From Saccoglossus kowalevskii (Eukaryota; Hemichordata; Enteropneusta; Harrimaniidae), in contig NW_003151259.1 in the NCBI RefSeq assembly GCF_000003605.2, positions 243,768 to 288,721 on the forward strand: 44,954 nucleotides of DNA, written 5' to 3'. Shown here in pieces: positions 13,801 through 38,200 of this stretch. Position numbers and translations under genes: made by a program. The notes below the pieces were generated by a model that saw only the letters and a program-made list of their open reading frames with translations, ran no database searches and was not told the origin of the DNA. Each line of letters opens with the position of its first letter. The stretch's first letter is position 1.

Positions 13801-16800
13801 CATTTCGTGATGATATCTTAAATTCTCTAATTTTGGTGAATATTTTTGTCATTTTTGGTAAAAAGTGATATTTTCTTGTTAAAAACCACAATCATTTATG
13901 GTGAAAAATGATATTTTTGAATTCTTGTTGAAAACAGCAAGTCCCATTGCATTGATACTATACGTATTGTTCATTTTCTAAATATTCACTAATGTGAACT
14001 TTATTTTCATATTTCTGAAAATTTATGTAAATGTCTGAATTTTTAATTAAGCAAATATAGTATATCATACAAATTTTGTATGTGCATTTTCATTAGATGA
14101 AAACTACAATGGCAATGTTTTTATTGTGTAATGTTTGATTTCAGACTTATTTGCCAGGCTCTGTGAAGAAAACTCATTTCCATCAGGAGCTTTTTGTACT
14201 ATTTTGGAAGATGTGTGACGCAAATAAGAAATTCTTGTACTATGTACTAAAAAGCAGTGATGTATTAGATGTCTTGGTTCCTATATTGTATCATTTGAAT
14301 GATGCTAGAGCTGACCAATGTAAGTAACCATGGTGATTCCAACTTAGGTGAATCCAGTTACTACGTGTGGATTTCACTGTTTGCAAGTTGCATGTTTGTG
14401 TCAGTCACTATGTGTGAATCAAGCTTTGTCATAAAAAAAAACACTTGTACACGGTGGCTACTAATATCCAGATGATGGGGATCTGCATTTCTGTTTGATT
14501 CAATCATTTTTTCAATTTGTATATATAAATTATAAATTATTTATTTCATAAATTTCACATTTGGCTATACCACTTGATACCAGAAGTCTGGAATACCAGA
14601 ATGATTAGAGAATTGCATAGAGAATAGAAAACAGAGCTAGGAATGTGAAATGAGGCATTGAATAAATTCACTAAGTGTCAGCAATAGTTTTCCATTTTTA
14701 GTCCTGAATGCCTATTTTATTAATTATTTTACTTTCAGCTCGTGTTGGGTTAATGCATATTGGTGTGTTCATACTACTATTGCTGAGCGGTGAGCGCAAT
14801 TTTGGAGTCCGTTTAAATAAGCCTTACAGTGTGAGAGTACCCATGGATATACCAGTATTTACTGGCACACACGCTGATTTCCTCATTATTGTAAGTATTT
14901 CTAAACAATGTAAGCACTCCCACAGATTGCATTAAAGAGATAATATGGATAATTTAGAATATTCTTGTGAACATTTTATGATATTACATCTTGATAAAAA
15001 AAGTAAGGTATAATTTATCTTAAAATAAAAACATATCAATATTCATTAGATGTAATAATAAAAAATTGTAGTATGTGTGTACCTCATCATATTTATGAAT
15101 ATGTACATGTAACTCTAAGCAATCATTCAATGAAATAACAATACATGTATTTTTGATTGAGATTTTGAATGATCTTATTACTGAGTTTCTTTTGTTTTCA
15201 TTCAGTCTAGCTCTGTTGCCAGCATTGCATGGAGTTGTCTTTGCTACTTTTCACTGAAAGGTCTTAACATTGTTATAATTGTATTGACAGGTATTTCATA
15301 AGATTATTACGTCTGGACATCAGAGATTACAACCATTGTTTGACTGTCTATTAACGATCATTGTCAATGGTAAGTATCATGACACGACAGAAATAAAGAA
15401 AGAAAGAACGACATTAGAACCAACATGATGTGATAGCACAATGTATTTTATGCAGCGATATGTGAAGCCTTTGTGTTAAACATATTGTTCATTTAATGAC
15501 ATTAGGACCAACCATGGTACATGTGTTTCATTTCTGAGCTTTGACCAGCCACCTGCTGTGATAGCACAATGTATTTTACAATATTTATCTTTATTACAAT
15601 GATGCGAGCAGCTATTGCATTGAGCATATTGCCCCCAAATAAATATGTCATTCCTGTTTTGGTATCTCATAATATTTCTTTCTTTTCAATTTCAGTATCT
15701 CCGTATTTGAAGAGTTTATCAATGGTGTCTGCAAATAAATTACTACACTTATTAGAAGCGTTTTCAACACCATGGTTTTTATTTTCCAATCCAACCAATC
15801 ATCATTTGGTTTTCTTTCTGTTAGAAGTTTTCAATAATATTATACAGTATCAGTTTGATGGTGAGTTCATTTTACTTTACCCCTTCATAACCTTTCACCA
15901 CAAAATTTTTAGATGTTTCGATTTAAAACTTGATTAGATTGGAGATTGAGAATGAATGTACCAAAATAATGAATGTACCAAAACCATTCTCTCAGCTTTG
16001 TTGTCATTCTTGGAGCACATTGTATACTTTAAATATCGCACAAACATATATTATTATACATCTGTCACCATAAGTTACAGCGAGCTGTAAATTTGCATTA
16101 TTGCACTGGGTATTTTCATTCTACCATATTAGTGGTGAGTAAAGTGAATTCCAAATATGGAATGATTATGCGCATAAGCATCCTCTAATAATAAAAACAA
16201 ATATGGCTGCCCCCAGGGTTTTGACTGGACCCCACACAAAAAAGTTTGCTGATTCTGTTCTAAATTTTTTTAGCTCCGCTGTCGACTTTGTCGAGCGGAG
16301 CTTATCATATGAGTGATTGTCCGTCGTCGTCCGTGTCAATGTTTTACTTTTTCGTTTTCTTCTTGAAAACTACAAGCCTGAATGCTTTGATACTTGGTGT
16401 ATATGTACCTTGGGTAGACCTCTCTCAGATTTGTTCATTTCATGATCATATTTTCAATTCTCTAATTTTGGTGAATATTTTGTCATTTTTGGTATAAAGT
16501 GATATTTTCGACTTCTCGTTAAAAACTGCAAGTCCAATTACTTTGATATTACATATATAGGTACTACATGTGGAGCTCTCTCAGATTTGTTCATTTTGTA
16601 ATGATATCTTTAGTTCTCTAATTTTGGTGAATATTTTTGTCATTTTTGGTAAAAAGTGATATTTTCGACTTCTTGTTAAAAACCGCAAGTCCAATTGCTT
16701 TGATAATACATATATAGGTACTACATGTGGAACTCTCTCAGATTTGTTCATTTTGTAATGATATCTTTAATTCTCTAATTTTGGTGAATATTTTTGTCAT

Positions 16801-19800
16801 TTTTGGTAAAAAGTGATATTTTTGACTTCTTGTTAAAAACTGTAAGTCCGATTGCTTTGATACTATACATATTGTTCATTTTGAATGATGTCTTCAGTTC
16901 TTTAATTGAAATGTGCATTGCTAACAGCGGAGCTATCTCAGCCGACAGGCTGCTTGTTAACAATATGATGCATTTTTTTGTGGTTGCTAACTGTATTGAG
17001 AATGGGTTGAAAATGTCTGTTTTGGGTTAAATTGTGTTTTTAAATCCAGGTACGGAGCAATAGCAATAGGGACAGGCAGTTTTGGAGGTCAAAGAGAATA
17101 ACGCAGACATACATATAGATGTCTTGGATCCATATAGGGGGTAGTTTATTACTAAAGCACTATGAACTAAGAAACCAGTGTTTTCACAAGGTATATGCAA
17201 ATTTATGCAAATGCTATGTAAATGTGAACATGCTGACTTTGAAAACACTTGTAACGTACGTATCTAAAAACTACAGACAAAACTAATGGACTAAAGTCCC
17301 CCTTGGAGTTAAAAAGAGACACACTAATCAACCTGGGTTGATTGTTAATAAATGTTAAAAGGAAAACATAGTTCAACCTGTGTTGGTTCTTAATAAAGCT
17401 AATACAGCAATCAACCTATGTTGATCATTGTTAGAGTAAGAAAGAGCAATCAACTGGCCTTGACATTGCAAGAATTAGAAATAAAAGAAATCGCACACCC
17501 ATGGTAAATATCATGACTTACCCATGTGAAAGAGGGTGGGGTGGGTGGGAGAGAAAAAAATGACGTCTGTGGCTGGCTTGGCAATGCGAACTGAGTACTA
17601 AATTAAAAATTGCCGGCAAATGAATAATTTATTTATTTATGCTAATAGGGCAGCATAGTCCATATGATTGGTCACAATTGAAATATGCAGATTTGACCTT
17701 TAAATCACTGACCTCCCTAAGGGCCTACTAGCTCCCCTGTATTTAAAACTCGTTAATGTATTAACTTTGCCTTAAATCCAGGTAAAATCCGACTCGCAGA
17801 TGTCATAATAAAATAAAATAACGTTAATAGACTATGTCAAAGTATAATATGCATCACAATAGTATTGTCTCCGTAATTTCTGGGAAAAATGTTTTTATTG
17901 TAATGGTGGTGTGGTTTTTGTATGGATGAGCGGAAATTGATGGTGGAAGTCCAACGAAACTTGACAATATTGATGGGCGCCTGTCTTCTTTTGCCAAATG
18001 CACTTATTCCCAGAATTTTCTTTCTCTTAATCTCGAAATGTATTCCATTTTGTTTTGATGAAGTCATCTCCACAGCTCAACGACGGTCGGCATTCAAACA
18101 TCTGAACTCAAGACCCCCCCCCCCCCCCACCGCTTCGTCGCGTCTTTTCATGCAGGGTCAAAGTTCTTACAGAGTGCACAGTGCTTACAGAGTGCCGCGC
18201 TTTCTCCAAGCATTCGTTCAGGGACATTAGGTCAATTATTCTCAGGACTTCAGAATCTCCTTTCATTATATTGTCATTACGGCCCACTTTTTTCGTCAAG
18301 GCATATGTGTTTCTTCAGTTGTACAGATGTATGATCCTGTGTCTGTCTCGTAGCTCTTTGGTGCAACCTACAATCAAATTTCGCCCTAACAATTTCATTT
18401 AATAGTTGAACATAGACATGCTTTATTCCCGGTCAGAGTCAGTCACGTAAATAATAGGGTTGGCAACATAGGGCTATGATTCCACAGCTAACTCAGAGTC
18501 GGACTCTGTCATGGAGCTGTCACTTTCGATACAGTATGCACTAAAAATCCTGTCTTCTCTTTGGTTATGATAGGAACCATGTTCTCCTTTTTACTCCATG
18601 TGGCATTGTTGTATATAATAAATAAATCTCTGGATATAAAATAGCTGATGTGTTGCGTATGAACGGCGTTTGTGAAATCGTGGAGGTAGCTCCATGGTGA
18701 AAGAAGTACACAGGAAACGAAACTACTGTTAAGCTCCAGTGATCAATCAACATTAATTAAGCAGGATTTATGCAAATTAAACAGTTAAACTAAGACCGTG
18801 GCACATGTGTTTGTTTTTAATAATTTTAATCCTAGTTTATAAGGTGTTCTACTCACAATAGAATTTTGAAATTTTCGCTCAAGAACAAGAACGTTTTCTG
18901 CTTTATAAAAAGTTAAAAAAGTGAAATTTCACCTCTAAATGCATTTTTCCCTGCAACGCCACCTTAAAGCAATTGATGGTTTACATTGGCTTCTATTTGA
19001 AATGTGTTTCTAATAGAACAAGTAAGATGATCATCTTTAAATTCGTTTGAATGTACTGATCTGGAAGGGTTTATTGTTATCTACTGTTTTTACCATCAGG
19101 AAATGCCAATTTGGTTTACACCATCATTCGTAAGAGAACTGTCTTTCATCAGCTAGCTAACCTGCCAACAGACTATCAGTCAATTACCCGTGCTCTCAGC
19201 AGACGTAGGAAGTTGTCATCAACTGGTTCTACTATCGATGCTGAGCCTATTATGGAAGGAGCCATTCCTGCAGCTGAAGCTGAACCAGGAACACTTAAAG
19301 CTACATTGGCTGCTACACCAGGTATGGACTGAATAGTAGGAAAGCATGGGTGGTACATATTCACTGCAAACTGAGATGGATTAACAGCACTGCAATTAAT
19401 GTTACTTTATTGATGATTTGGACTAATGGTTGATGATGGAATGAGTATACACAAGTTGCGGGAAATTTTTCTTATATGTGATAAATGTTAGAATTTTATT
19501 TGCTAAATACTGCTTTTAAATCTGATATCCTTGAATTCACTCTTGTTCCAAATCACAGCGAACAATTTCTCACAAATCACACATATCCATACCATCAGTT
19601 ATTAATTTAAGTATTAGTCCCAAAGCACCAATAAAAATGCAATGGTTGAATGACTAACGAGAGTCTTATTTGGCCTTCTTCTCTAAAACTACAGAATGGA
19701 TCTACCCTGAATTTGGTCGGCGATAAAATACCAACTTGGTATTGCTTTAGTGTGAATGAATTCTTTTAAGAGCTCTAGTTTAGACTTGACATTGAACCAC

Positions 19801-22800
19801 AAGAAATTGATAGTGCTTGATCTGAACTCAGTCTGCTCTGTCATTTACAGATTAGGAATTAATGTTTAAAGGGATGATGTCATCATAACTAAATGTCAAT
19901 CACACACAACATGACTGGCTGCTTTGTTGATAAGAGCAGAAAAACATGTTCATGTATAGTTATGACGAAAGTATCTCTTTTAATACAGCATGTACACTAG
20001 ATACATTATAATTACATTGAATTGTTTATGAGGTTGATCTGGTTGTACACCACATACGTATAGATATGAATGAGTTTGATGAAATATATCTACCAAAAGT
20101 TTCCATGTCTAAATAGAGAAACAAGTATGGTAATCACAAGGCAACCTATCTCAACCAAATATTCCAATATAATTTGTATCCACTGCACATGAAATGCAGT
20201 TGAATTCTTGTTGTGTCTTAAATAGGAGTTTTATTATTGTTTTAAATTTAAATCTATTGTTATTATTGTTGAACAGAAACATTTTAAGAATGTCACAGAA
20301 TTCTTGTGCAGTTCATTCAAGATAATATGGTTTACAGCTTTGTTAAAAAATCGCTTGCTGAAAGACTCTGCAGATAGCTGAAATAAAAGCATCAACAAAG
20401 AATAACATACAGTACATCCTATCTTAATTTTATTAGGTGTTGAAAGGATGACTGAAAGGACCGAGTTAGGGGCTCCACCAACTGAAGCATTAGCTACAAA
20501 TGGTGCTACCCATGCTGTTCAGCCACCCGATAGCCTGCAGGTAAGTTAACATGTCATGTACATCAGTAATATTTGGATCATTATAGTCACAATCCATATA
20601 ACAGTAAATTATAGTAAGTTAAAAAGTTCTCCACATTAGACAAATTATAGTATAACTATTTTTAGCTGCCTGGCAACTCAATAACAGTATGCCCTCTTTT
20701 GCTGGTCCCCTGGGTCCCCTGCGAAAGACTAGTAGAACTAATTAGCCATTGGATTCACATGTCTAAGTGACCTAATTTTAAAGCATTTTTCAATCTCCGT
20801 AAGACAAGTCTGTATTCTGTTATAACACCATCCCCATTCAGTCTGCCTGCTTAAACTTCATATTTGAGATGGTTCTGGCATTTCTCACTATTCCTGTGCA
20901 AAGTGAAAATAAAACTGTTATATTTGTGCAATCTTTGCAAGTCAAAGAAAACTCCTGCTCTATATATACCGGTAATACAACCACAAGCTTATGCGCCGAC
21001 ATCAGGAAATAGAACATGGAACATGATGGACATGATGGACCAATTAGAATACTGGAACGATCACTTGTTACCTGCTTCTTGTGGCTGAACACTTGAGGCG
21101 TAAACCAGCCAATATATGGCATCTCAATAACAGTATGCCTTCTGAGAGGTCACTTATATAAATAGTAATAACAATTGATATTAAAAGCACAGTCAGCTCA
21201 GGAGCCAATCAGCGACAGCCTTACTGATGACAATTTTGGTTTCTAATTTCCCGAGAAAGTGTTCTATGTTCTTCTTGTAATAGGTGTTCGTATGCAAGGT
21301 ATTTTTCCACACAAAAACAATTAATTTGGCCAAATTTCATTAGTGATTGGCTTAATATTACCCCAATGGATCTTCTGACTGTGAAGGTGTGGTATTTTTT
21401 AGTCCCCGTTTGGACGAAGTCCAAAAACAGGGACTATTAATTTAGGTTCCATCCGTCTGTGCGTCCGTGTGGCCATCCTGGGCCATTTCTCGGACATCGG
21501 ACACCCTTTGACCGATCTCGTTCAAACTTGGCATACAGACAATTTATGATGACCTACATATGCATGCCAATTAAATATGGCTGATTGACAGCCATTTTGT
21601 CCTTCAAATTTGCTAAATTCTGATATATAAACGTGTCCGGAACTGTTTTTCGGAGTTGAACAGGGTGATTTCAATCAAACTTTGTATGGCGATCATGCAT
21701 ATTGGGTTATAGTTGCACGTCACTTTTTTTTCGAGATTTGGTTCAAGATGGCTGGGCACCTATTTTTTTTTTTTTTTTTCGTTTTCGTGCTGATTCCTCC
21801 ATAAGATATGGCCTGATTCAGTTCAAAGTTTGTACATAGGTACTATACTTCAAGATAACACAAAACCATGTTTTGTCTTGAGATTTGATCAAATTTGTCG
21901 AAATGGCGGCCATTTTGTCAAAAAAACGTAAAATATTATTCTGTAACATGTCCGGAACTGTTTCTTGGAGCTGAACGGCATTTTCAATCAAACTTTGTAT
22001 GTTGACCTTACATATTAGATTACGGTGCAAGCCATATTTCTTTTGGAGATACTTGAACAACAATACCCGACTGGCTGCGTTTTTCTTTTATGCTATTTCC
22101 TCGGTAAGATATAGTCCAATTCAGTTCAAAGTTTCTACGTAGATACTATACTGACAGTAACACAATCTATAATCTGTGTTAGTGTTGGTATTAAAAAAAT
22201 ATTGATCTTTCATTTCTACATGTACATGTCACTTGTACTTAACATCTACTTCGACTACAGCTAATACTTAGCGGGGACTATGCATTATCAATGCTTGTTT
22301 TCTGATATGTGGGAATCTGAAAAATTTGTTTCTCAACTTGTCTTTATTCAGTTTCAAGCCATATTCAAGATGGTGCCCCCATATAGTAAATTTATACGCC
22401 AGCTGATTGTTATTAGAAGCTACATTTGTCATTATTAAACATTATTAAACAGGGAGGGTTACTGAATTTGGATGATTCCATATTCTGTACATACTTGTAT
22501 ATATTACCGTATATTCTTCCTCCAAAAGATTTGTTGAATGTTTTTTATTTTTACTGTTTCTTAAGTATACAAAATAAAAGTATACACATTTTTACCAATT
22601 CAGTGTTCTTGTGAAAACAAATTAATGTACAATGTGAAATGAACCAATTCTATGAATAGCATAGAATATATAAATGTTTTTAAATCCTAAATGATTACTC
22701 CTTTCTTGCTCACATTTAATGATAGAATGGTACACAAGTTGGTCTTACATTTCCCCAGGTACAGTTGAATAATTATATTCGGTGTATATTCCAGTTACTT

Positions 22801-25800
22801 GCCTTGTTTTATCCATGTATTATCACCTAAACATAAACTCCTACATCTTACCTACCCTCATTTTCATTTCCTCCCCGTCCTCTTTCCCCCTCCTCTTTCC
22901 CCCCTCATTCCATATGTTAGTAGATACTCTGCTATTACTCATTTTTGTCGTACATCTATGAATCGCTGTATTGAATAACCACCAACATATTTATCAGCTG
23001 TTACCCATGTTCAACCATAGAAATGTACATTGCACACAATATTATTAAATACTCTGAATTTTTCAAGTATACTGCATCCCTAATCAGTAATTGCCTGTTG
23101 TCTACTGTGATATCATGTTAACCAATATTGGATGCTAGAATTTCCAGCTAGATATCCCCCATAATTACTTGTTATATTATCGCATGAGACTTGTCGCTAG
23201 TTATTGATGTTGGTGTTTTGTATAAAAGTATATGTACTGCAAAATAAGAGAAATACAGAGCATGTGAAAACAATATTTTATAAATGTGTGAGTCAGTTTA
23301 CAACCTTGTATCAAATAAATAGGTTTATTTTTTTTGCCTGATCTTTTATAAAGCTTAATTATTTTCATCGTTTTAAGTTAAGGAAAATATTATCATTATT
23401 GGTTCACCCTTTATTATTATTATCTTATTTCATGTGTGATTGCAGGCTGGAGCTGGTGCAGTTAGTGCTAGCGACACAGAGAGCTCAGCTGCTGAGGAAT
23501 ATAAACCTCGTAGTAGAGGAGATAGTTCATCTGTAAATAGTAAACCAACCAGTCCTACGACATCAATACCACTTGGTGGTCATGGTATGCTACGTAGGGC
23601 TGGATCTACTGCCAGTGATACATGGAAAGCTACTTCTGATTGGGTAAGTTGTCTTGCATATATAATGAACTTATTTGCATATGTTCCTTCATGCTCAGTC
23701 AGTGTAACAATTGTAATTTGCATGAGACAAATTTTCGAGAGACTGAAAATCACAAAATTTGGTAGCAATGACGATTTCTCTGAAATGCTACAAAATGCTG
23801 TGTGAGTGATGAATGCCATAAAATCCTGATATCATGAAAATTGTTAGTGATGAAAATTAGATTGTTTACAGTACATATGTTTGGTCATTTGACTCAACTA
23901 GCACAGCGATAAGGATTTTAATGTTTGGTTAAGAAACAAAAATTTCAAAAGCTCTGGTAGACATTGAGAATTACCACTAACTTACTTGCGTTTTCTGGCA
24001 TTGCAGCAGTGAACTTTTGAGGTAAAACAGTCTCTAGATTGGTTTAACAACTTATGTAATATTTGTCTATCAGGTGCAGTCATGGAAACAGAAGTTACCA
24101 CTACAGACTATTATGAGACTGTTACAAGTATTGGTGCCGCAAGTAGAAAAAATATGCATTGATAAGTAAGCACAACATTTTTATTAAATTGTCATTCTTC
24201 ATCAGGTGAGAAATCATCAGGCGATACTTTGGGGGAAATGGATAGTACATTATTCTTTGTTAATGAATTCTATTCATGTGATTTTATATTGAGAATTTCT
24301 GAAGCTACAACTCTTTCAACATCATTGCAAACCGTGACTGAGATAAAGTCTGTTAAGTTTCTAGTATAATAGACAAAACACCAATGTGTACTCAAAAGTA
24401 CCCAGTAACTTGGCCGAGAAGGGATTAAATACAACGCAAGACAGTTACGCAAGACAAAACAAATCTCTCTTGACACAAGGAGCCGTAAACAGACACTGGT
24501 GGCGCTGTATACAAACAAAATCTATTTAGGCTTGCCAACGCTCACGCTGGCAACAATGTATATTTAGCTAAACTCTTGAGGTTTACTGCATTTCAAAATG
24601 GTATTCTCAAGTCACTAAACAAGTTATGTTTTGGATTTTTGGGAAAATGACATCACAAGGTCAAATTGTGTGCAAGAACCAATCAAGTTGCTAATGAAAC
24701 AGCATATAAAAATATACATGATACATTTATTTACTATTACAGGGGTTTGACAGATGAGAGTGAGATACTGAAATTTCTACAGCATGGTACACTGGTTGGA
24801 CTTTTACCAGTCCCACATCCCATTCTGATCAGGAAGTACCAAGCTAACAGTGGTACAACTATGTGGTTCAGGACTTATATGTGGGGAATTATATATCTTA
24901 GGTATGTACTTACAACTGATAAATGTGGTATGATTGGTATTCTCTCTGATTGTTGTGATATGTCTACTGTGTTTTCACTATTAGCAATACCATGCAATGC
25001 AACAATTGTTAAGCTCAGCGAATAATGCAATGAAACATTTCAAACTACTCAGATTCTCCGATATCTCCTTTCAATTACAAATCATGTGTACTCTCTTGTC
25101 TTGACTTTTAATGAAGATGTGTATGGTGATTTTACAAGTTTTAGAAGTACATGTAACAGGCACATTGTCAGTCTCCAAACATACTGAGATACACCCAGAT
25201 TTGTTTTTCACTTTATTCATACAATGTCATAACATTTACCTTTCAACATTGTAATGTAATGACTTCTATTAAATATCCAGTATATGCTAATAGTGAACAT
25301 GCACTGCAGTAGTTTGACATCAAGCTGGTTGAGAGAGTACTGTAAAACATGTTGAAAAAGCGGCATGCAATTTTAGCGAATTGTGGTAAAATGACGTAAT
25401 AGCGAAATGTTGATTTAGAGAATCTCTCTTGTCATTGTTGATTTCTTTGTTTGGTGGCCATTTTGAATTGATAATAAAGTCATTAGCGACATCTTGAATT
25501 AGCGAATCAGTTCTCTCGCTAAATTAGCGGAACATACATGCTCGCGAAAAAGTCATGTTTTACAGTACTTGTTTGTGTTGTGAAATCTCTTGTCACTGAT
25601 TCTACTTTCTTACTTTCAGCACTGATGCTCAGTTCATCTCTCCTAACAGCATGCAGAGCTTTAACTGCTATCACTACTAATATATGTATATATATATGTA
25701 TTCTAACTTGGTACTTGACTCTACAGCATGTGTTATTTTACACAGGACATCTTTGCTTTCATTACTGGGTGTGTTATCATGCATGCTGATGTATCCTACA

Positions 25801-28800
25801 GCTAATCACATTGCAGTTCATAGAAAGAGTGGTGCATTTCAAGTTTGGGGTTACACTACTCAAAGGGAGCTACATAATGCATGCAGGACACTCATGAATA
25901 CAAATTAAATTATCATTGGAGTAATTTTACAAACAAACATTTATCTGACACTACAACATCTAAAAGAGAAATGCTAGCCTTTGTTTGTTTGTGCAATTAC
26001 TCCAATTATAATTTAATTTATCTCTATGATCACAAGTTTGATGAGTTTTTATGAATCTATATTGGCTTAGGTCAATCACAAAGCTTGCATGGACAATCAA
26101 GAATGCATCCTATACTAAACTATTGGTGGTGGAAGGGATGGGGTTTCTTGAATTAGTTTAATGCTTATCTATATTTAGCAACATAAGGCTGCACTCATGA
26201 TGGTAAATGATGAGTAAATTATCGTATTTATCTGAAAGATCGCCTACTGTAAAAGATCTCTCAAGGGTGATGTTTCAGCACCTGGGCAATCTTTTGGTGT
26301 CGCAAAAACAAATAAATATCGTAAAAAATAACTGTGTAGTAAAGAGTACAGATTAATTGGTTTCAAGTCAACATTAGTGTAGCGGGTGTTTATAGTGAGA
26401 ATCTCATGCACACAGTGTCAACTAATAAAGGTTTGTAGGAAATATGCAATCCTGCCAAACAATAGCACTGTGACATCCAAGTTACATTCAAAAAAATTAT
26501 GCAAGTTCTTTGTTCAAATAATTTAGATTGAACTAAAAAACTGAAATCTTCGTTGATCTGGCAAGCTTGTAGTGACACAAGGTCAAGCAGCTATCCAACC
26601 AAAAACAGGGTTACTCCTGGCATTTGTATATGTTAGTAATGAACTTTTGACAACTTGGTATTGAAGTTGTGCAAGATTTCAGAGCGGTGCTTTCTCAATC
26701 TATCCGCATTGACTGAGGAAATGTTCCAATCTACTGGGTATACGCATTGCTTTAAGGAATTTTTTTCATGCCACATGCTTATACATTGTAGTTATTTTTT
26801 TGTCGTGAGTGAAAAAGATTCATTGTATAAAACAATGTTGAGAAAAAGTGCCTTGTATGCTGTTTTGGTTCTGGTTATCTTTCAAAATATGACCAGTCAT
26901 CCAAAACATCACCCAGGGCAATCTTTCAGATAAAAACAGTACTATTATGCCAATTGGATATAAATACCCTCACGTTATTGACTAATTAGATTCTTTTAAG
27001 GGATTATCTATTTGTCTATCAAAGCTACCCTGTCTCAACTGAATGTGTTCAGGGCGTACTAAGGTTGCTGTGTTTGAGGCTCATCCATCCTAACTGGCAC
27101 TGCATGGTAGTTCATTAACCTAGTGTTTTTCTATCTATCTCTCACATGCAGTTGTTATTCTCTGTTTGATGTTCCTTCTGTCTGTGTAATTGCATGTTGG
27201 GTGTTGTTTTTTCACTCCAGCTAAATAAATGTGTGCATGGGATATTTTACTTCTTATTTGACTTTTTGTGTCGCACATTGCAAATACCATTTGATGTGCT
27301 CTTGTGTATATTATATGCGATCAAAGTGGCTCAATACAGTTTCACAATTTTTTTTATATTTTGCCAATAAAATGCTCATTATTGTACAAAGTAATATGTA
27401 TAAAAAAAAGTGGTTGTACAGATGTATTGAGATAAATATGATATTACTGTATGTGGATTTCAGATTCTATGAGGAAAATCTTTGTAATGAAACAATGTTT
27501 CCAAAATAACATTTCCAAAAAATAAATACAGGGGGACTGGGGTATATACTTATTTGTAAAAATACAACAATTTTAGTAACTTGTCCTATGCATGGAAGGA
27601 TAGAATATGTTCTCACATGAGAACTCCTGCACATCCACAACCTACCTATGATGTTCAGGAAAACATTTTGAGCAACCTTAATTTTAATATTTCTAATATT
27701 TAAAAAATATATATATATCCGGTAACAAATTATTTGGAAATTGATAAAAAGACAAAATATGAATTTTTCATAAAGTCAATTTGTTGTCTTGTGTGCATCT
27801 TGATATCATATTTGGCACTACTTTCAAGCCTTTGTTGTATATATTGTGTTCTTGTTAACCCATATCACTGCTCCACCAACTACTCCACTGGTTTGTCACC
27901 CATGTTTTCTGCCTCGCTTTCTCTATCTAGGAACATAGATCCACCTGTTTGGTACGACACAGACGTTAAGCTCTTTGAAGTACAGAGAGTTAAAGACGTT
28001 AAAGAATCGTAACATGACTGAGCAGAATGACCATCTATAACTGTGATCTGTGGTATTGTCTGAATCAGTGCTGGTGTTTCCTGCATGCTCAGTATTTGTA
28101 ACCTCACTCTGTATGATCTGTGGCAGAAACTCTATTTATTCACATGTATCCCTTCTATATGTAAAATAAAATATACAAAGGAGTCTCATCAGGATTTGTG
28201 AACATTGTGATGGGATATGTAGTTACTGTCTAATTAGATACCTGCCATGGAGTGTCAAGCAATGATCCTAAATTCCTGGCTCATGTCAACTGGAAAATTC
28301 ACTAATTGCAGATACTTATTTCATTCATTCCATGTGTCGTCTGTAATTTGTAAATAGTAATTTATATCTAATATTGCTAAAATATAAAATATTAAAAATT
28401 CTGCTTCAGCCCATTAAAAAGCAAATAATGTCTAGATGATAAATTATTATCATTATTAGCAATCATTATACTCTATTTATAATTTATATAACTGCTGTAA
28501 ATGTTAAGGCCACTTTGCTTGAATGGTGAACCATAAGAGTTGAGGGCGCTTTTCTTTGCTGACTTGATTTGTAAAACAAATGAAATATGTTGAGATGAAG
28601 TTTGTATTTCCTGAATGTTTTCCAGTACAGCAACCTAATAAAGTATAAATAATTGTCCTGACATTTCAATAATCGGGTGATATATCACCATAGTAACGCA
28701 TTTATGTTTATTTGCAATTGGTACATTGAATTTTATTGGCCAGGAGTTTTGGATCATGCATGGTATTTTGTCTGCCCTTCCACTCTCTATCTCAATTAAT

Positions 28801-29061
28801 GGAATAACCCAGGCACATGTACTGTTTGGTTATACCAGTATGGAAAGCGGGTGAGAAGGTTATAAATATGCTGGTGGTGGCTGTATTATATATTACCGGT
28901 AGTGTTTTTTTATATCAATGTATTTATGAATAAGTATGTGTTACTTTGTATATTAAATTCCTCCCTGACCTATGCACTCTGACCTTTGAACCTAAAGGAA
29001 TGTGGATCCACCTATATGGTATGATACGGACGTCAAGTTGTTTGAAATCCAACGAGTGTGA
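1802..29061 (+). CDS. HID1: HID1 gene (partial: 5' exons missing), full span of coding exons in window
   Basis: Joined coding exons: 1802-1828, 6565-6669, 8451-8619, 9874-9931, 10890-11112, 11525-11635, 14145-14319, 14739-14890, 15291-15369, 15696-15860, 19100-19321, 20437-20540, 23446-23643, 24074-24165, 24743-24901, then either 27931-28012 or 28998-29061. All introns are GT-AG and every junction keeps the frame, giving 706 or 700 residues. The product matches the HID1 family (Hid1 domain; human protein about 788 residues): blocks such as SCEYIWEAGVGFA, CAYDPVGYG, NYLSRIHREEDF, GERNFGVRLNKPYS and HGTLVGLLPVPHPILIRKYQ are nearly identical. Family knowledge: HID1 is a peripheral, N-myristoylated Golgi/TGN protein needed for dense-core vesicle and neuropeptide sorting. 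The myristoylated N-terminus is not in the window. The least conserved part is the Ser/Thr/Pro/Ala-rich linker from exons 11 to 13. No membrane segment or enzymatic motif is evident. Confidence 0.95.
2030..2800. repeat. Minisatellite, 45-bp units then ~49-bp variants
   Basis: The motif AGACTTCACA recurs at 2121, 2166, 2211, 2256, 2301, 2346, 2391 and 2436, an exact 45-bp period. The consensus includes CAGCTAGTTACCAGTTGT and TAATAATGTAAA. From ~2480 to 2800 diverged copies follow, with a ~49-bp unit (CATCACATTTTAATGGCTAG). Located in a HID1 intron. Confidence 0.95.
5461..6030. repeat. Minisatellite, 63-bp unit, about 9 copies
   Basis: The motif GGAGGTGGATGTGGCTGAGG recurs at 5521, 5584, 5647, 5711, 5774, 5837, 5900 and 5963 (the last with one mismatch). 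The period is 63 bp except one 64-bp unit. It is strongly purine-biased (G-rich on plus) against an AT-rich background. Because 63 is 21 codons, it makes long open frames on the minus strand that I do not treat as genes. Confidence 0.96.
6565..6669 (+). CDS. HID1: HID1 exon (PLAQSLLNALADLLFCPDF block)
   Basis: 35 codons, phase 0 at both ends, acceptor CAACAG and donor GTAAGT. The peptide PLAQSLLNALADLLFCPDF followed by TVSHHKK matches the conserved N-terminal third of HID1. It ends in a KKGGP linker. Confidence 0.93.
6670..8450 (+). other. HID1 intron, nothing recognised
   Basis: AT-rich intron of 1.8 kb without repeats or coding signals that I can support. Confidence 0.55.
8451..8619 (+). 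CDS. HID1: HID1 exon (SCEYIWEAGVGFA block)
   Basis: 169 nt, starting in phase 0 (EKPEDPQS...) and ending one base into a codon. It contains SIDSCEYIWEAGVGFANTPP and LLKLLLTCFSEAMYLPP, both diagnostic for HID1. Acceptor TTTTTATAG, donor GTGAGT. Confidence 0.96.
9085..9760 (+). mobile_element. Family C hairpin-capped repeat, 5'-truncated
   Basis: Shares long stretches with the minus-oriented copy at 41479-42756, e.g. the segment around CAAACTTGGTATATACATTA and the (G)GCCATTTT motifs. The 3' end is the palindrome GCCATGCATGGC (9743-9754) followed by TTGT. The 5' hairpin is missing. Lies in the intron between the exons ending 8619 and starting 9874. Confidence 0.75.
9874..9931 (+). CDS. HID1: HID1 exon (NPWITYFCSSENR)
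   Basis: 58 nt; the first two bases complete the Ala codon left by the previous exon. Reads DAHTSPNPWITYFCSSEN and ends two bases into an Arg codon. It corresponds to the NPWVQFFCSTENR segment of vertebrate HID1. Acceptor TTTTTCAG, donor GTGAGA. Confidence 0.95.
9932..10889 (+). other. HID1 intron, nothing recognised
   Basis: About 960 bases of AT-rich intron. No exon or clear repeat found. Confidence 0.5.
10890..11112 (+). CDS. HID1: HID1 exon (CAYDPVGYG block)
   Basis: 223 nt; completes Arg, then HALPLFTSLLN, CAYDPVGYGVPYNHLMFSD and LLVVTLDHDS. It ends with a low-complexity Thr/Val/Gly linker (VEAGD) before GTAAGT. Acceptor TTATTTCAG. The central part is almost identical to vertebrate HID1; the linker after LDHDS is variable in the family. 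Confidence 0.96.
11113..11524 (+). other. HID1 intron, nothing recognised
   Basis: About 410 bases; a short open frame (11166-11366) has no recognisable similarity and conflicts with the gene structure. Confidence 0.5.
11525..11635 (+). CDS. HID1: HID1 exon (NYLSRIHREEDF block)
   Basis: 37 codons, phase 0 at both ends. Reads GIPDNLFVNYLSRIHREEDF then YFILKGLTRLLNNPLIQ. Acceptor TTGACAG, donor GTGAGT. The hairpin-capped repeats start 60 bases into the next intron. Confidence 0.96.
11695..11780 (+). mobile_element. Family B 5'-end fragment
   Basis: Begins TTTTAGCTCCCCTGTTGACT and continues GAGCAAAGATTGTCATATGA, a diverged family B 5' hairpin and flank. It stops where the family A element begins. 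Confidence 0.7.
12365..13160. repeat. 143-bp tandem monomers within family A element
   Basis: Four consecutive monomers before the gap are spaced exactly 143 bp, with at least one more after it. Monomers differ by few substitutions (GTAGTAAT/GTACTAAT, CTAATTAGC/CTAATTTGC), which suggests recent homogenisation. Confidence 0.9.
12887..13001. other. Assembly gap (115 N)
   Basis: A run of N inside the 143-bp array. The spacing between equivalent points on either side (12810 to 13015, 205 bp) is not a multiple of 143, so the gap length is only an estimate and the array is probably mis-sized. Confidence 0.95.
13639..14010 (+). mobile_element. Family B element, 3'-truncated
   Basis: Begins TTTTTAGCTCCGCTGTCTGC with the hairpin and TTATCATATGAGTGATTGTCC, then one or two core monomers (TGGTGAATATTTTTGTCATT). 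The 3' palindrome is missing. It directly abuts the 3' end of the family A element. Confidence 0.8.
14145..14319 (+). CDS. HID1: HID1 exon (TYLPGSVKK...NDARADQ)
   Basis: 175 nt, phase 0 start, ending one base into a Ser codon. Contains QELFVLFWKMCDANKKFLYY and KSSDVLDVLVPILYHLNDAR, matching HID1. Acceptor TTGATTTCAG, donor GTAAGT. Confidence 0.96.
14320..14738 (+). other. HID1 intron, nothing recognised
   Basis: About 420 bases, AT-rich, no feature. Confidence 0.5.
14739..14890 (+). CDS. HID1: HID1 exon (SRVGLMHIGVFILLLLSGER)
   Basis: 152 nt; completes the Ser codon and reads RVGLMHIGVFILLLLSGER, then NFGVRLNKPYS and DIPVFTGTHADFLII. This is the most conserved stretch of the family. The hydrophobic run belongs to the helical fold and is not evidence for a membrane span. 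Acceptor TACTTTCAG, donor GTAAGT. Confidence 0.97.
14891..15290 (+). other. HID1 intron, nothing recognised
   Basis: 400 bases, AT-rich, no feature. Confidence 0.5.
15291..15369 (+). CDS. HID1: HID1 exon (VFHKIITSGHQRLQPLFDCL)
   Basis: 79 nt, phase 0 start, ending one base into a Val codon before GTAAGT; acceptor TATTGACAG. The peptide is identical or nearly identical to vertebrate HID1 throughout. Confidence 0.97.
15370..15695 (+). other. HID1 intron with short direct repeat
   Basis: 326 bases. The phrase GTGATAGCACAATGTATTTTA occurs twice (near 15430 and 15560), with similar neighbouring phrases, suggesting a ~130-bp partial duplication. Otherwise empty. Confidence 0.5.
15696..15860 (+). 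CDS. HID1: HID1 exon (SPYLKSLSMVSANKLLHLLE)
   Basis: 165 nt; completes Val, then SPYLKSLSMVSANKLLHLLE, HHLVFFLLEVFNNIIQYQFD. Donor GTGAGT after one base of the Gly codon, acceptor CAATTTCAG. An open frame continues on both sides, but the phase and the similarity stop exactly at the splice sites. Confidence 0.96.
15861..19099 (+). other. HID1 intron
   Basis: 3.2 kb. Besides the family B element it holds four loosely repeated ATCAACCT(G)GTTGAT-like phrases (17320-17460), a run of 17 C near 18115, and a stretch from ~17500 to 18760 with more G+C and CpG than its surroundings. No exon recognised. Confidence 0.5.
16272..16958 (+). mobile_element. Family B hairpin-capped element, full length
   Basis: 5' hairpin: AGCTCCGCT / CGAC-TTT-GTCG / AGCGGAGCT (16272-16302). 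The core has ~157-bp monomers (TCTAATTTTG at 16461, 16617, 16774). Near the 3' end AGCGGAGCT (16926-16934) is inverted relative to the 5' start, then the palindrome CAGCC-GACA-GGCTG (16939-16952) and CTTGTT. Flanked by a T-run on the 5' side. No coding capacity. Confidence 0.88.
19100..19321 (+). CDS. HID1: HID1 exon (NLVYTIIRKR and variable linker)
   Basis: 222 nt; completes Gly, then NANLVYTIIRKRTVFHQLAN and LPTDYQSITRALSRRRKLSS. After that comes an Ala/Glu/Thr-rich linker with AEPGTLKATLAATPG, which matches the AEPGTLK...ATPG motif of vertebrate HID1. Acceptor ACCATCAG, donor GTATGG (weaker than its neighbours). Confidence 0.94.
19322..20436 (+). other. HID1 intron, nothing recognised
   Basis: 1.1 kb of AT-rich intron with no repeat or coding signal noted. 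Confidence 0.5.
20437..20540 (+). CDS. HID1: HID1 exon (linker, VERMTERTELG)
   Basis: 104 nt; completes Gly, reads VERMTERTELGAPPTEALAT and ends AVQPPDSLQ before GTAAGT. It is a low-complexity linker, so the call rests mainly on splice sites, phase and position. Vertebrate HID1 has a similar short charged motif after ATPG. Confidence 0.82.
20672..21143. repeat. 26-bp direct repeats flanking a 420-bp insert
   Basis: GGCAACTCAATAACAGTATG (20672-) and GGCATCTCAATAACAGTATG (21118-) both continue CC(C/T)TCT. 24 of 26 bases match. The sequence between is not recognisable. It could be a long target-site duplication or a segmental duplication edge. Confidence 0.7.
21401..22300 (+). mobile_element. 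Family C' hairpin-capped element, full length
   Basis: 5' hairpin AGTCCCCGTTTGGAC (21401-21415), loop GAA, GTCCAAAAACAGGGACT (21419-21435). The core repeats phrases such as CATGTCCGGAACTGTTT, TTCAATCAAACTTTGTATG and GGCGGCCATTTTGT. Near the 3' end AGCGGGGACT (22270-22279) inverts the 5' start, then GCATT-ATC-AATGC (22282-22294) and TTGTTT. Preceded by a T-run. Confidence 0.86.
22726..22758 (+). CDS. Possible HID1 33-nt cassette microexon
   Basis: Eleven codons, NGTQVGLTFPQ, phase 0 at both ends, between a pyrimidine-rich tract ending GATAG and a GTACAG donor. Inclusion or skipping would keep the reading frame between 20540 and 23446, inside the variable linker. No homology supports it; it is an inference from splice-like signals only. 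Confidence 0.3.
23446..23643 (+). CDS. HID1: HID1 exon (Ser-rich linker)
   Basis: 66 codons, phase 0 at both ends, acceptor TGATTGCAG and donor GTAAGT. Reads a Ser/Ala/Thr-rich region (ASDTESSAAEEYKPRSRGDS, SKPTSPTTS) and ends KATSDW, matching the (P)EW that precedes the conserved C-terminal domain in vertebrates. Many SP/TP and basic-Ser motifs suggest a disordered, phosphorylated segment (inference). Confidence 0.88.
23644..24073 (+). other. HID1 intron, nothing recognised
   Basis: 430 bases; the open frame continuing from the upstream exon shows no similarity and is intronic read-through. Confidence 0.5.
24074..24165 (+). CDS. HID1: HID1 exon (SWKQKLPLQTIMRLLQVLVP)
   Basis: 92 nt, phase 0 start (VQSWKQKLPLQTIMRLLQVL then VPQVEKICID), ending two bases into a Lys codon before GTAAGC. 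Acceptor TCTATCAG. Near-identical to the vertebrate C-terminal block. Confidence 0.96.
24166..24742 (+). other. HID1 intron, nothing recognised
   Basis: About 580 bases without a supportable feature. Confidence 0.5.
24743..24901 (+). CDS. HID1: HID1 exon (GLTDESEILKFLQHGTLVGL)
   Basis: 159 nt; completes Lys, reads GLTDESEILKFLQHGTLVGL, LPVPHPILIRKYQ and MWFRTYMWGIIYL. It ends two bases (AG) into an Arg codon before GTATGT. This donor must choose between two downstream terminal exons, both of which begin with G and complete AGG. Confidence 0.97.
25336..25569. mobile_element. MITE with perfect 16-bp inverted repeats
   Basis: AGTACTGTAAAACATG at 25336-25351 and its exact reverse complement at 25554-25569. 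The inside is rich in TTAGCGAA-like phrases on both strands. 234 bp. With TA as target duplication the element would start CTGTAAAAC; the AGTACT palindrome leaves the exact edge ambiguous. Confidence 0.82.
25905..26016. mobile_element. Small TTAA-flanked foldback element
   Basis: TTAA at 25905-25908 and 26013-26016 enclose an inverted repeat: ATTATCATTGGAGTAATTTT...AAACAAACA pairs with TGTTTGTTTGTGC...ATTACTCCAATTATAAT, about 30 bp with few mismatches. 112 bp in all. RNA from either strand would form a long hairpin. Confidence 0.78.
26227..26934. mobile_element. MITE-like element with 18-bp inverted repeats
   Basis: TTTATCTGAAAGATCGCC at 26227-26244 pairs with GGCAATCTTTCAGATAAA at 26917-26934 (one mismatch). 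A second matching phrase, GGGTGATGTTT, lies just inside on the left, with AAACATCACCC on the right. 708 bp. A 92-codon open frame on the plus strand (26655-26933) has no recognised similarity. Confidence 0.72.
27931..28012 (+). CDS. HID1: HID1 terminal exon, copy a (ends QRVKDVKES)
   Basis: 82 nt from a strong acceptor (CTCTATCTAG) to TAA at 28010-28012. The G completes Arg, then NIDPPVWYDTDVKLFEVQRV and six extra residues KDVKES. Human HID1 ends at the QRV position, so this copy adds a short charged tail. An AATAAA lies about 150 bases downstream (28165-28170). Confidence 0.92.
28013..28997 (+). other. Interval between the two HID1 terminal exons
   Basis: 985 bases: 3' UTR of the copy-a transcript and intron of the copy-b transcript. 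AT-rich, with one AATAAA (28165). No similarity between the sequences flanking the two exons is evident, so any duplication is old. Confidence 0.6.
28165..28170 (+). promoter_or_regulatory. Candidate polyadenylation signal after terminal exon a
   Basis: AATAAA 153 bases after the TAA of copy a. It would let transcripts end before copy b. Candidate only, because AATAAA is frequent in AT-rich DNA. Confidence 0.45.
28998..29061 (+). CDS. HID1: HID1 terminal exon, copy b (ends at QRV)
   Basis: 64 nt after an acceptor CCTAAAG preceded by a pyrimidine-rich stretch. The G completes Arg, then NVDPPIWYDTDVKLFEIQRV and TGA at 29059-29061. This is the same terminus as human HID1. Compared with copy a, 16 of 61 aligned bases differ but only three residues change, all Ile/Val exchanges, so both copies look selected as protein. 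Splicing from 24901 fits either copy. Confidence 0.9.
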
Positions 29062-30825
29062 AGTGAAGATGTGGAGAAACCTGGATGAGAATTCTAGAAA
29101 GTATACCGAACTTAATGATTACATTCCCCATTTAATGTGTAAACAATTTGTTGGTTTTCCCCAGTATCTTAAGTTCCAAACACATATTTTAAAACACATA
29201 TTTTTCATCGTGTGTCCCAGCTCTGAAATATAAGGAATTTACACCCCATGCATTGTTATTTCTATAAAGGTCACATTACTCAATCTATTAAACAAAGAGT
29301 TTCTTTTTTGTTTGGATCTTGTCATTTACCTCACTCCCTTCTTCATATTGGTGACCAATATAACCATAGTTATGAAGAGAAAAGCTAACTACTGAGTATC
29401 TTATTAGTAGAGGGGACTGTTTTCAGATACATTTACTTGTAAAGTTTTCTCTTTTCTTGTAGTTATATATAATCATGTATTCTTACTATTTAATATGTAA
29501 AATAAATTACTGTAGTAGAAGAAAACAAACTTTTAAGTTAGTTTAAAAGTAGTCTTTGTCGAAATTCTCTTGTTCTCCAACATTTTCTCACCCTAGATCA
29601 TCATCTTGGTAAATAAGAATGTTGCATTATGGGATTCACTAGAGGGCAAAGGTCAATAAGGGAGTGCAATTCTAACCATTCCAAAGATTACAGTGTACAT
29701 AAATTATACCGGGTAGTTAACAAACTGATGAAAGGAATTTGGGAAGAGATGTTTTTAGTTGTATGTGGTTTAAAAGTATAGCAGGTTTTACTTTTTTTCA
29801 TCCTTGGGCTTGTGCAATTATATATGCCAGTCAGTTTGACCTATCAAAGCACAGAACACTTTGATTCCTTGTGATAGTTTCCAAGGACCTGATGCGTTTT
29901 TGCTGCATGCCATTCGGTATTGAAACTGTTGACACAACAGAACATAGATAGCAAGTTTTCAATTTTGAAACATTTGACGAGTTGAATTGAACATGAATTT
30001 ATTTAAAATGCATGTCTGCATGGAGTGTGAGACCTATTGTGTGATCAGTCTAGGCCTGATGTATAGAATAGGTAGTATCAGAATTTGTTTTTCCCCTGAG
30101 CACGTTTGGACAATCTTTCTTAAAAAAAAGAAATCTAAATAAATTAACTATAATTGTTGCCATGTAATGAACAAGACACCAAAGTATAATTCTATAAATC
30201 TCTTTAATCAATAGCATGAAAATGTTACAGTGCCTACACAGATGATTACAAGAAAAGATAGATTTTTGTGTCCATCGTTACTGCATGCTTTTACAGTATC
30301 AATTTGTTTTGAATATTGTAGCATTTGTTTTGTATTATGTTTTATGAGATTTCATTAATGTATTTATGTTTAGGTTGAACAAATGTGAAAACTTTATATT
30401 GTCACAAATACCTACAAAGTTTGTGATGTAATCACTATTGCATTTTAGTTTTCAGCTATTTGCTTGTAGATTTCTTTGTTTCTTAAACAGTGTACAAAAA
30501 CCTCAGTATATATTACGAAAATATATTTGTAAAGAAAAAAAATAACAAGTACATTGTAATAGACATGTGAGCCTTTATTTGTGAGTATTATTTCTGTTTT
30601 ACTGCTTCAGTGGTTTTTCATAGATTTGCCAGCATTATTTTTAAATGAAGAGAGATTAATATTTGAGGAGTTTGGGATTGCTGGACAGTGTGGTAGTAAT
30701 CTGTAAGGTTTTAGTTGTAAAGGATTTATCTCATTAAAGGTAAATATGTAACTAGAAAGCATGTGAGTTGAGTATCTATATATTAATAACAGTTCCCAGA
30801 AATGCTTTGAAAAGTTTTGTATGCT
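29062..30825 (+). other. HID1 3' UTR and intergenic DNA
   Basis: AT-rich, no coding signal. Contains the candidate poly(A) signal at 29501. Confidence 0.5.
29501..29506 (+). promoter_or_regulatory. Candidate polyadenylation signal after terminal exon b
   Basis: AATAAA about 440 bases beyond the TGA of copy b, in AT-rich sequence. It is the first plausible signal I noted there. Candidate only. Confidence 0.4.
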
Positions 30826-31026
30826 TCACTGTTGATAAAGTTGAGCAGAGCTCTTCGTATTACTGATTGTTCATAGACATCTTTTTGTTGGCCAATGACT
30901 TTGATACTTTCAAGGAGGGTACCTTGGGTGGTTTTACCTCGGATTTATTCATTTCGATTTTCTCTAATTCTTTATTAGTAAAAAAATACTATTTTCAACT
31001 TCTCAAACACTTGCCTGATTGCTTTT
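30826..31026 (+). mobile_element. Family B fragment, degraded
   Basis: Matches the family B 5' end in diverged form (GTTGAGCAGAGCTCTTCGTA, then the ACCTTGGGTGG and CTCTAATTCTTTATT phrases). It is cut off where a family C 5' end begins. Confidence 0.6.
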
Positions 31027-34654: not shown

Positions 34655-34945
34655 TCTTGACGCAGGGGTCACCCCAACCAGGGTCACTGCTGACTGGGGT
34701 CACCTCAACCAGGGTCACTGCTGACTGGGGTCACCCCAACCAGGGTCACTTCTGACTGGGGTCACCCCAACCAGGGTCACTGCTGACTGGGGTCACCTCA
34801 ACCAGGGTCACTGCTGACTGGGGTCACCCCAACCAGGGTCACTTCTGACTGGGGTCACCCCAACCAGGGTCACTTCTGACTGGGGTCACCCCAACCAGGG
34901 TCACTTCTGACTGGGGTCACCCCAACCAGGGTCACTGCTGACTGC
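34655..34945. repeat. 31-bp minisatellite with paired GGGTCA motifs
   Basis: About nine units of CCAGGGTCACTGCTGACTGG followed by GGTCACCCCAA (e.g. 34681, then +31). Units differ at two sites (CTGCTG/CTTCTG and CACCCC/CACCTC). It ends about 135 bases past the CEP131 stop and may be transcribed in its 3' UTR. Confidence 0.95.
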
Positions 34946-35080
34946 TGCATTTCCAATATCACCATTACAGTATTTCATTGCTAGAAATCATGATGAACAA
35001 ATTTTATAGAATCCTTTCTTAACAAAAACACAATTGAGAGTGCTCCTATTCTGTTTTATAAAATTATAATTTATGAATGT

Positions 35081-35219
35081 CTATTTCTTAATTTTTATTA
35101 ACTGTTTTCTTTGTTGCTCTAATAATGATTCTAAATGATCAGCTCTCTTAACAGCAGCTGTATGTTGTTGTTTTAATTGGGTGACAGTTTCTTCTTTTTT
35201 CACAATGGCTTGTTTTACC
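35081..35219 (-). CDS. CEP131: CEP131 terminal exon (AAVKRADHLESLLEQQRK)
   Basis: 139 nt after TTTATTTCAG; completes Arg, reads VKQAIVKKEETVTQLKQQHT, AAVKRADHLESLLEQQRKQL and IKIKK, then TAG (plus-strand 35081-35083). The length and end match human CEP131. A 31-bp GGGTCA minisatellite starts about 130 bases past the stop. Confidence 0.95.
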
Positions 35220-38200
35220 CTGAAATAAAAACAAAACAAATACATAGGGCGAATAAATTAGCAAACATATATTTGTTATACCTGGCACAAAATATAATAG
35301 ATAGATGTTCGGCTCGCGTCTTTCACACAACTCGCGAGACCTCAGTTGAACAGAAAATCACCTATTGTAATAATTACAGCGACGGCGGTGAACATAATTT
35401 ACTAAGCGTGACATATACATAAATGTAGTTTTGCAATATTTTATTTTATTATTCTCATGATATTAATAATTCTCAATTCCACGTTATGTATATTGTTATG
35501 TATATAATAAGTTAGAACACAAACGCAAATTGCAAATTACAAGTATACATTTAGTAATTAATTTTTTAAATGAACCGAGTACATAAAGTAATAGACCGCA
35601 AATCAGTTTTCAGTTTTCATGGTACACACATGCCATCTTACCTTTTATGGACCTCAGCCATTTCCTCTTCCTTTTCTTTCTGTATCCTATCAATTTCCAA
35701 TTTATGCCTAGCCCTCATCTCAGACATCTCAGTTTTCACACGTCTATTTTCCTCCTCCGTCTCTACCAACCGATCAGCAAATTCCTGTCTCACCACATCT
35801 TGTACATTCTTTCTTTCCCGCGTCAATCTGTCGCATTCCTATAAGAAATTAAGGCCACACACTGAGTAAGTCATCACATCTCGCGAAATTTTGTAACAAG
35901 TCACCTGGTGTTAAAAATAGCTCTGCTGTTTCAGCAGTGCCTTCATTAAATGTTCCCCCAATGCACAGAAAGAACTAATCTAATCTATCCATGGTACACA
36001 TATTTCAATTTTCAAAGCAATTGGAGAACCGATTTTCAAGAAAAAGTCAACAATAACATTTTTGAGGAAAAAATGACAAAAATATTTGCTTAAAAATAGA
36101 GAATTAAAAATATCATCATGAAATAAACAAATCTGACAAAGGTCAAATTGTTGACAGATGAACAATCATCTATATGGCAGCTCTGCTCTGTCATCTATGA
36201 TGACACCGGATATATGAACCTTCTTTTGAAGGAAGAAATGCTAACCTTGCTGTCATCAACAATTCAACAGTCACAAAAACAAAGCAGAGGTTTTATTGGA
36301 CAAATCTATCATACCTTTTTAATGTCATCAACTTCTTGTTCTTTTTGATTCATGAGTCCTTGAAGACGGATATTTTCTCCTTCTACCTCACCCAGCCTTG
36401 CTTTAAGTTCATTCAATCTTTCTTGTGTGTTCCTTTCAGACCTTTCAATCTCTCTCAGTTCTGCTTCATACTTGTCACGAATACGTCTGCAATAAGAAAC
36501 AGAAATTTAAAAACAAGGGTTCGTTACCTGTGCATGCAAGGTAATTGAGTCCTAAGCGACGGTAACAAGGCACGCTAAAAATGCAAAGGACGACTCTCTC
36601 ACTTTAGAAAATGTCATTGTAAATGACAGTCCACATCAATAGAGTGTTGAAATCATATAAAGTCAGTGAAATTAACCTTAAAAGGTTTGAAACAGTAAAT
36701 TTTGATTCAGAGATACATGTAGAAACATCTTGAATTGGATCTAGAAAAGTAACAATGTGCACTTGTAATCCAATATGTATTATCACCATGACAAGTTTGA
36801 TTGCATTCTCAGAATATCATTTGATCTTTGATTTGGGACTTTTTGAAGCCTAAAATGGCTGCTACTCAATCAAAAGCCAAATCCTGGTGCATATGTATGG
36901 CATCATGTATTGTCTTTATACCAAGGCTCTGAATGAAACCAAAATTAATAGACCCTATTTTTAAGCCTTTGTCAAAATGACGACTAAAAAGTTTGCAGTG
37001 ATTGTCACTAAAAATTGAGAACAGAAACAAGGCGACAGAAATTCAATAACATCTAATCACACCAGACAGACAGACATGTATCTCTGACAAAAAACAATTA
37101 CATACTTTATTCTGTTTTCTGCAGCACGTTCACACTCATCTCGTGCAGATTCACTGTCATCTTCCAGTCTCTGAATAACTAATTCAATTTCTTTGTCTCT
37201 GTCTCTCCGTACTTGCTCTTTAAGTTCTCTCTCTTTGGCCAGTAACCAGGTTTCCTGTAACGACAATATGTCTAATACATTAACACTCAAATGATGAGTT
37301 CCATATGTCGAGGTTATCCTTTTAAATTTAAATACTGTACAACAAAAACAAGCCACTGAGAATTCCCCCTCTTCTTATATTCTTATATTTATGAAACAAA
37401 TGAACAGTCAGCATTTATATGCTCCATTTGGCACCACTGTATGTGCTAGTTCTATCCTGTGATTTCAATTTCTTAGACTGCAAGACAACTTTGCATGTAT
37501 GTGTTTGTATATGTTATATCTATATTGTGTATAATTGCATCAGACACAAATCATTTTGTATTGATACACTAGCTCACAAATGTCTGTGTACACAATTTTT
37601 ACTTTACTGGATGTAAATCTAAATGATTGCCAGTCAGCCATCGTGAATAGGATTTGCATAAGAAATAAGTATGCATCTTTGTAAAACAATACATTGTCCC
37701 TGTACCATTTGTTTGTAAAACTTTGTAATTGCCTTATCAAATTATAAGCTATTATATTGTCAATGACATAGTCCCGGTTCAATATTAGTTTTTTTAGTGA
37801 CTGTGACAGTCAGCCCAGGCATGCCTGAAAAGCATATGAGCTTGATTTGGCAAAGCATGTGTGATATACTGCTAGGTACAGACACATACACACATTGAAG
37901 ACAATCCTTACATCTATGTTTTCCTCTGAAATGGACTCACACCCTACTATTACCGTATAATCGTAGAATAAGTACAAACTTTCAACTGAATCGAGTAAAA
38001 TATAAAATAAATAAAAAAAATGGTCGCCAATCAGCCATTTTGGTCCAAAACTAAAAAAAATACGACTTGCATTTTCATACAAAGTTTGAATGAAATTGCC
38101 CTGTTCATCTCTGAGAAATGGTGCAAGACATGTTTAACCATGAGAAATGAGCGATGGCTAGTAATCAGAAAAAAAGGAAGGTGTTAAAAAGTGTTTGAAG

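Follow-up and report, generated by a model that had tools for sequence, protein, structure and literature searches.

Why the HID1 gene of the acorn worm Saccoglossus kowalevskii closes with two successive, closely similar last coding exons, and whether both of them serve the protein, is the question raised by this locus. What makes the case special is that the duplicated segment encodes the indispensable tip of HID1, a gene needed for hormone-containing vesicles. According to the available text of PMC10522040, replacing the last 15 residues of mammalian HID-1 abolishes its function with its location at the trans-Golgi network (TGN) retained, and regulated secretion in mammalian cells requires the C-terminal residues; in the same text, the mode of action of HID1 is given as unknown and no structure is described. 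A search of the PDB with the C-terminal 170 residues of HID1 likewise returned no related chain at E <= 1. An earlier note on this DNA had described two tandem last exons, copy a and copy b downstream of it, and their coordinates, split codon, peptides and stops were all recovered as described, with the HID1 frame open into each (Table 1). Positions refer to the window, which is the whole stretch of 44,954 nucleotides analysed here.

HID1 is encoded on the + strand. A search of the acorn-worm assembly (572 Mb, 4830 contigs) for the Pfam Hid1 family produced 10 matches, with 56 of the 66 candidates scored; all 10 are on contig C4128, which carries the window at 243768-288721. The gene model consists of two separately joined parts, 8451-20540 and 23446 onward, the frame across 20540-23446 being assumed. 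In the first part, exons bordered by AG and GT join from 8451 to 20540 as an open frame of 486 residues, which scores 567.6 bits against Pfam Hid1 over profile positions 178-643. In the second, in silico splicing of either last exon to the three preceding exons gives a separate open frame from 23446 onward, and this C-terminal part scores 145.0 bits with copy a and 146.0 bits with copy b over positions 693-812 of the 812 in the profile, so that both copies match the profile to its end about equally well. The gene accordingly belongs to the HID1 family (Pfam PF12722), for which the curated cut-off is 22.5 bits. The penultimate exon, which ends at the donor 24901 (...CTT AG/gtatgt), was found once in a genome-wide search at E <= 1. 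Exons for the first ~130 HID1 residues were not found by the Pfam Hid1 search combined with exon reading. The joined exons 8451-24901 also give a strong match to Pfam Dymeclin (475.7 bits), which suggests that the HID1 and Dymeclin families are related.

Table 1. Modelled HID1 coding exons, acceptor regions and candidate poly(A) signals in the window.
Feature	Position	Strand	Description
Upstream coding exons 1-4 of 12 (modelled)	8451-8619, 9874-9931, 10890-11112, 11525-11635	+	
Upstream coding exons 5-8 of 12 (modelled)	14145-14319, 14739-14890, 15291-15369, 15696-15860	+	
Upstream coding exons 9-12 of 12 (modelled)	19100-19321, 20437-20540, 23446-23643, 24074-24165	+	
Penultimate coding exon	24743..24901	+	GLTDESEIL...YMWGIIYL, then AG of the split Arg codon
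Acceptor region of copy a	27829..27930	+	13 pyrimidines at -18 to -4; AG-free for 102 nt
Copy a, last coding exon	27931..28012	+	G + NIDPPVWYDTDVKLFEVQRVKDVKES; stop TAA at 28010-28012
Candidate poly(A) signal past copy a, AATAAA	28165..28170	+	153 nt past the copy a stop; TGTA at 28145 and 28160
Acceptor region of copy b	28935..28997	+	9 pyrimidines at -18 to -4; AG-free for 63 nt
Copy b, last coding exon	28998..29061	+	G + NVDPPIWYDTDVKLFEIQRV; stop TGA at 29059-29061
Candidate poly(A) signals past copy b	AATAAA 29501..29506, ATTAAA 29287	+	

Both last exons are preceded by AG (ctatctag/G in copy a and cctaaag/G in copy b), share the same phase and have a stop behind them. The peptide of copy a is NIDPPVWYDTDVKLFEVQRV followed by KDVKES, 26 residues in all, and that of copy b has 20 residues. 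The earlier count of 16 differing bases was reproduced, here as 16 of the 60 that follow the shared G, distributed over the three codon positions as 5, 0 and 11. The alignment of 20 codons contains 8 without any difference, 9 with silent differences and 3 in which the residue changes, in each case between Ile and Val as had been noted, which leaves 17 of the 20 aligned residues identical. The statement that copy b ends like human HID1 agrees with its last 15 residues, which equal, letter for letter, the mammalian C-terminus quoted in the available text of PMC10522040; copy a departs from those 15 residues at two positions (Ile to Val) and carries KDVKES after them.

The pair is the longest among 11 direct-repeat families in 24400-31000, extending over 62 nt at 76% identity. 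When compared with the tip peptide, the two copy sites score 111 and 108 against a best score of 30 among 60 random order-1 sequences, each 6.1 kb long, and on these grounds a chance origin of the repeat pair is excluded. The tip peptide occurs at only two places in the genome (E <= 10, 2 of 2 candidates scored), and no third or decayed copy was detected in the window, where the next match among the best 20 listed has an E value of 1.1. A second copy was likewise not found in the window for any of the other 13 modelled HID1 exons, the penultimate one included; beyond their self-matches, these exons gave four stray matches with E values from 0.066 to 0.44, taken as chance. The flanks of the copies, compared over 100 and 600 nt on each side, displayed no homology above that of shuffled sequences, and with flanks that are unalignable the copies resemble one another in the coding part only. 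A derivation of KDVKES from formerly untranslated sequence was considered and is unsupported, the alignment over the 100 nt after QRV being matched by 192 of 200 shuffles. In the search for relatives, GTDB genome contigs gave 84 pattern matches and IMG/VR gave 15, none of which was confirmed.

Comparison of the codons indicates how the two copies have been maintained. By the Nei-Gojobori method, 11.5 synonymous differences fall on 12.3 sites, a saturated value from a small sample, and 4.5 non-synonymous differences fall on 47.7 sites (dN about 0.10); the contrast between the two classes, taken on rounded counts, has a Fisher P of 1.6e-8. Under a codon model with equal rates, dN/dS between the copies is about 0.03 for kappa values of 1.5, 2.5 and 4 alike, to be read as an order of magnitude given the coarse grid and the branch lengths at its edge. 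A model in which both copies are neutral is 14 to 15 log-likelihood units worse, and the penalty is about 9 units if copy a is taken as neutral from a clock-like duplication onward. This pattern of substitution shows long-term constraint on both copies at the protein level. Saturated synonymous sites, unalignable flanks, the presence of two copies in the genome and the single state of the other exons together indicate that the duplication is old and involved the last exon alone, and that both copies have long been held to the HID1 sequence. The earlier claim that both copies are under selection therefore stands for the long term, on the saturated synonymous sites and the dN of about 0.10, and is weaker for the very recent past, in which one copy may have been released.

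Several other features of the window and the genome were recorded. Exons encoding coiled coils of a convergent gene lie on the - strand at 35000-43100; we take this gene to resemble CEP131/AZI1, and of four stretches compared with Pfam, two had no family and two had weak matches below the cut-off. Five minisatellite arrays, selected from a table of 23 rows, are situated at 2079-2487 (unit of 45 bases), 5508-6030 (63), 12157-12886 (143), 34665-34944 (31) and 44210-44954 (39). The mitochondrial genome corresponds to contig C4830 of the assembly (17,037 bases), in which COX1 was identified by Pfam and is inverted. As read from translations, the remaining genes presumably comprise ND2 before ND1, then COX2, ATP6, COX3, ND3, ND4L, ND4, ND5 and CYTB, with ND6 on the other strand; the codons ATA and AAA presumably occupy positions that usually encode Ile and Lys, respectively, and TGA occupies Trp positions. 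For the S. kowalevskii mitochondrion, the available text of PMC3121625 reports a COX1 inversion, transposition of ND1 or ND2, AUA coding for Ile and AAA coding for Lys. The contig thus shows the pattern of this species in its inverted COX1, AAA as Lys and ATA as Ile.

The signals that would govern use of the two exons are less distinctive than their coding sequence. The pyrimidine content before copy a (13 of 15 positions) is reached by 2 of 195 AGs in 24930-29300, copy a included, and that before copy b by 52 of them, the 12 other HID1 acceptors having 8 to 13. Similarly, the AG-free distance of copy a is reached by 2 of 194 AGs in 24902-29300, copy a included, and that of copy b by 10, copy b included, with a range of 30 to 102 at the 12 other acceptors. 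Within 105 nt, copy a has a sole YTNAY, the branch-point-like TTAAC at -76, and copy b has four, two of which are CTGAC at -33 and -19. A composition model trained on the remaining 12 acceptors of HID1, each left out when scored itself, assigned -1.8 to copy a and -3.5 to copy b, compared with 1.6 to 7.3 for the others, and ranked them 46th and 71st among the 195 AGs; an earlier position-by-position matrix, which was over-fitted, had placed copy b 5th and copy a 135th of 195. Because the two models disagree, acceptor scores carry little weight, and the low values may reflect either regulated use or a poor model trained on 12 sites. As for polyadenylation, the AATAAA mentioned in the earlier note near copy a is present, and a second lies at 28637; with 1.2 expected, the two found between the copies are at chance level, two or more being seen in 33% of 500 random sequences, so the motif is no evidence by itself. 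Taken by themselves, the scans for splice sites and poly(A) signals give no support to the use of either copy. What holds of the note's interpretation is a tandem, intact and selectively maintained pair, whereas its alternative terminal exons with alternative polyadenylation gain nothing from chance-level poly(A) signals and low-scoring acceptors. The scan also revealed a microexon-like segment of 23 nt at 25746-25768, placed between the best acceptor of 195 AGs (24930-29300) and the best donor of 195 GTs (24910-27900); including it would apparently put the HID1 sequence that follows out of frame.

One alternative, which we regard as unlikely, is that one copy, either a or b, is a recent relic, both having been used for a long time until one lately lost its use or expression. 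Codon models with free branches accommodate such a history nearly as well: if copy a is neutral along a branch of 0.2 substitutions per site (and the branch of copy b has 4), the fit falls short of the best model by 0.5 to 0.7 log units and of the equal-rate model by 0.2 to 0.4, and if copy b is neutral along a branch of 0.1 substitutions per site, the fit lies about 2 log units below the best. At 0.05, 0.1, 0.15, 0.2 and 0.3 substitutions per site, respectively, simulation of neutral change from copy b (substitutions only) left three or fewer changes in 85%, 42%, 14%, 4.5% and 0.25% of runs, so that the 42% and 4.5% obtained at 0.1 and 0.2 are compatible with a short neutral episode; moreover, the acceptors of all 12 other exons outscore both copies. 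However, these fits need the two branches to differ in length by a factor of 20 to 40, which describes a late release and not neutrality since the duplication; furthermore, the frames of the two copies are open, the three changes are confined to Ile/Val and the fit to the family profile is equal for both copies. An assembly artefact, such as a misplaced allele or a scaffolding error, is conceivable in an assembly of 4830 contigs and a window with 115 N, seen near 12.9 kb, but it is highly improbable in view of the 24% divergence over 62 nt, the unalignable flanks, the lack of any N within 24500-30500 and the single genomic match of the penultimate exon.

It could also be supposed that copy a is a stop-bearing exon differentially included between 24901 and copy b, an arrangement as described for Drosophila Mhc, in which case copy b would become 3' untranslated sequence in a possibly unstable transcript. 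This option is named for stop-bearing terminal exons in the available text of PMC3228551, and donor-like sites past copy a fall within the range of the 14 real HID1 donors (3.3-12.1), the best being 28850 (CGG/gtgaga, 8.3, top of the 72 GTs between the copies) and another 28933 (6.1). Nevertheless, the best donor implies an exon of about 920 nt, its score barely exceeds the 7.7 that is best among 195 GTs of a control intron, and long-term protein-level constraint on copy a would be unexpected of a mere poison exon; we therefore consider such inclusion quite unlikely. Since both copies end in stop codons and no later HID1 exon was found beyond them, the pair does not represent internal mutually exclusive exons.

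Alternative terminal exons, with the copy a transcript ending at a poly(A) site of its own, are the likeliest reading of the DNA, and an ancient tandem duplication of the HID1 last exon, retained in this manner to provide two C-termini, is considered probable. According to this reading, the terminal coding exon of a single acorn-worm HID1 gene would have been duplicated in tandem long ago and both products kept. The donor at 24901 would be joined either to copy a, in a transcript ending between the copies, or to copy b downstream, which would result in two HID1 proteins whose tips are alike save for the three Ile/Val exchanges and the KDVKES on form a. We infer that both copies are transcribed, that terminal-exon and poly(A)-site selection determines the choice, and that both proteins work at the TGN. 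Copy b is probably the ancestral form, as it ends exactly where mammalian HID1 does. Both forms are probably active: HID-1-GFP and HID-1-HA rescue function in the available text of PMC10522040, so that an extension such as that of form a would be tolerated if these tags are C-terminal, as their names suggest. More tentatively, and with less likelihood than not of being correct, the pair may constitute a conserved switch by which tissue or developmental stage determines whether HID1 has a bare ancestral tip or a KDVKES tail; such a switch would be ancient in acorn worms or more widely and would tune dense-core-vesicle formation through the only part of HID1 known to be indispensable. If both exons are used, the natural pair of tips would mark positions that tolerate change (the three Ile/Val sites and the extension after the final Val), offer a natural test of whether a free C-terminus matters, and add a case from a deuterostome invertebrate to the duplicated terminal exons.

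Tandem homologous terminal exons form a known class, and the HID1 case appears to be unreported in the literature searched, where no paper combined HID1 with Saccoglossus and none joined HID1, dense core vesicle and alternative splicing. The mammalian HID1/HID-1 of PMC10522040 is the same gene and shares its last 15 residues with copy b; the available text of that source mentions no second last exon and refers to an isoform 2 without detail. In exon structure, the acorn-worm pair corresponds to type B of PMC3228551, as far as its available text defines it, in that acceptor phase and frame are shared, each copy encodes at least 15 residues with a stop after it, and the copies are homologous with lengths (26 and 20 residues) inside the default difference of up to 20 residues; exons of that type are used mutually exclusively, each with a separate poly(A) site. 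Human capping protein beta, named in the same source, has a homologous pair of 3'-terminal exons with multiple poly(A) sites; the likeness extends to two last exons with their own stops, the same phase, similar length and an important C-terminus, whereas the gene and the animal group are different and the HID1 pair is known here from DNA alone. A broader parallel comes from the tandem duplicated exon substitution events of human genes, 77 of 236 of which swap C-terminal regions according to the available part of PMC9741552. Those events concern human genes, with HID1 absent from the main text, and the present case concerns an acorn worm, but the two have in common a tandem duplication, mostly conservative replacements and an ancient origin.
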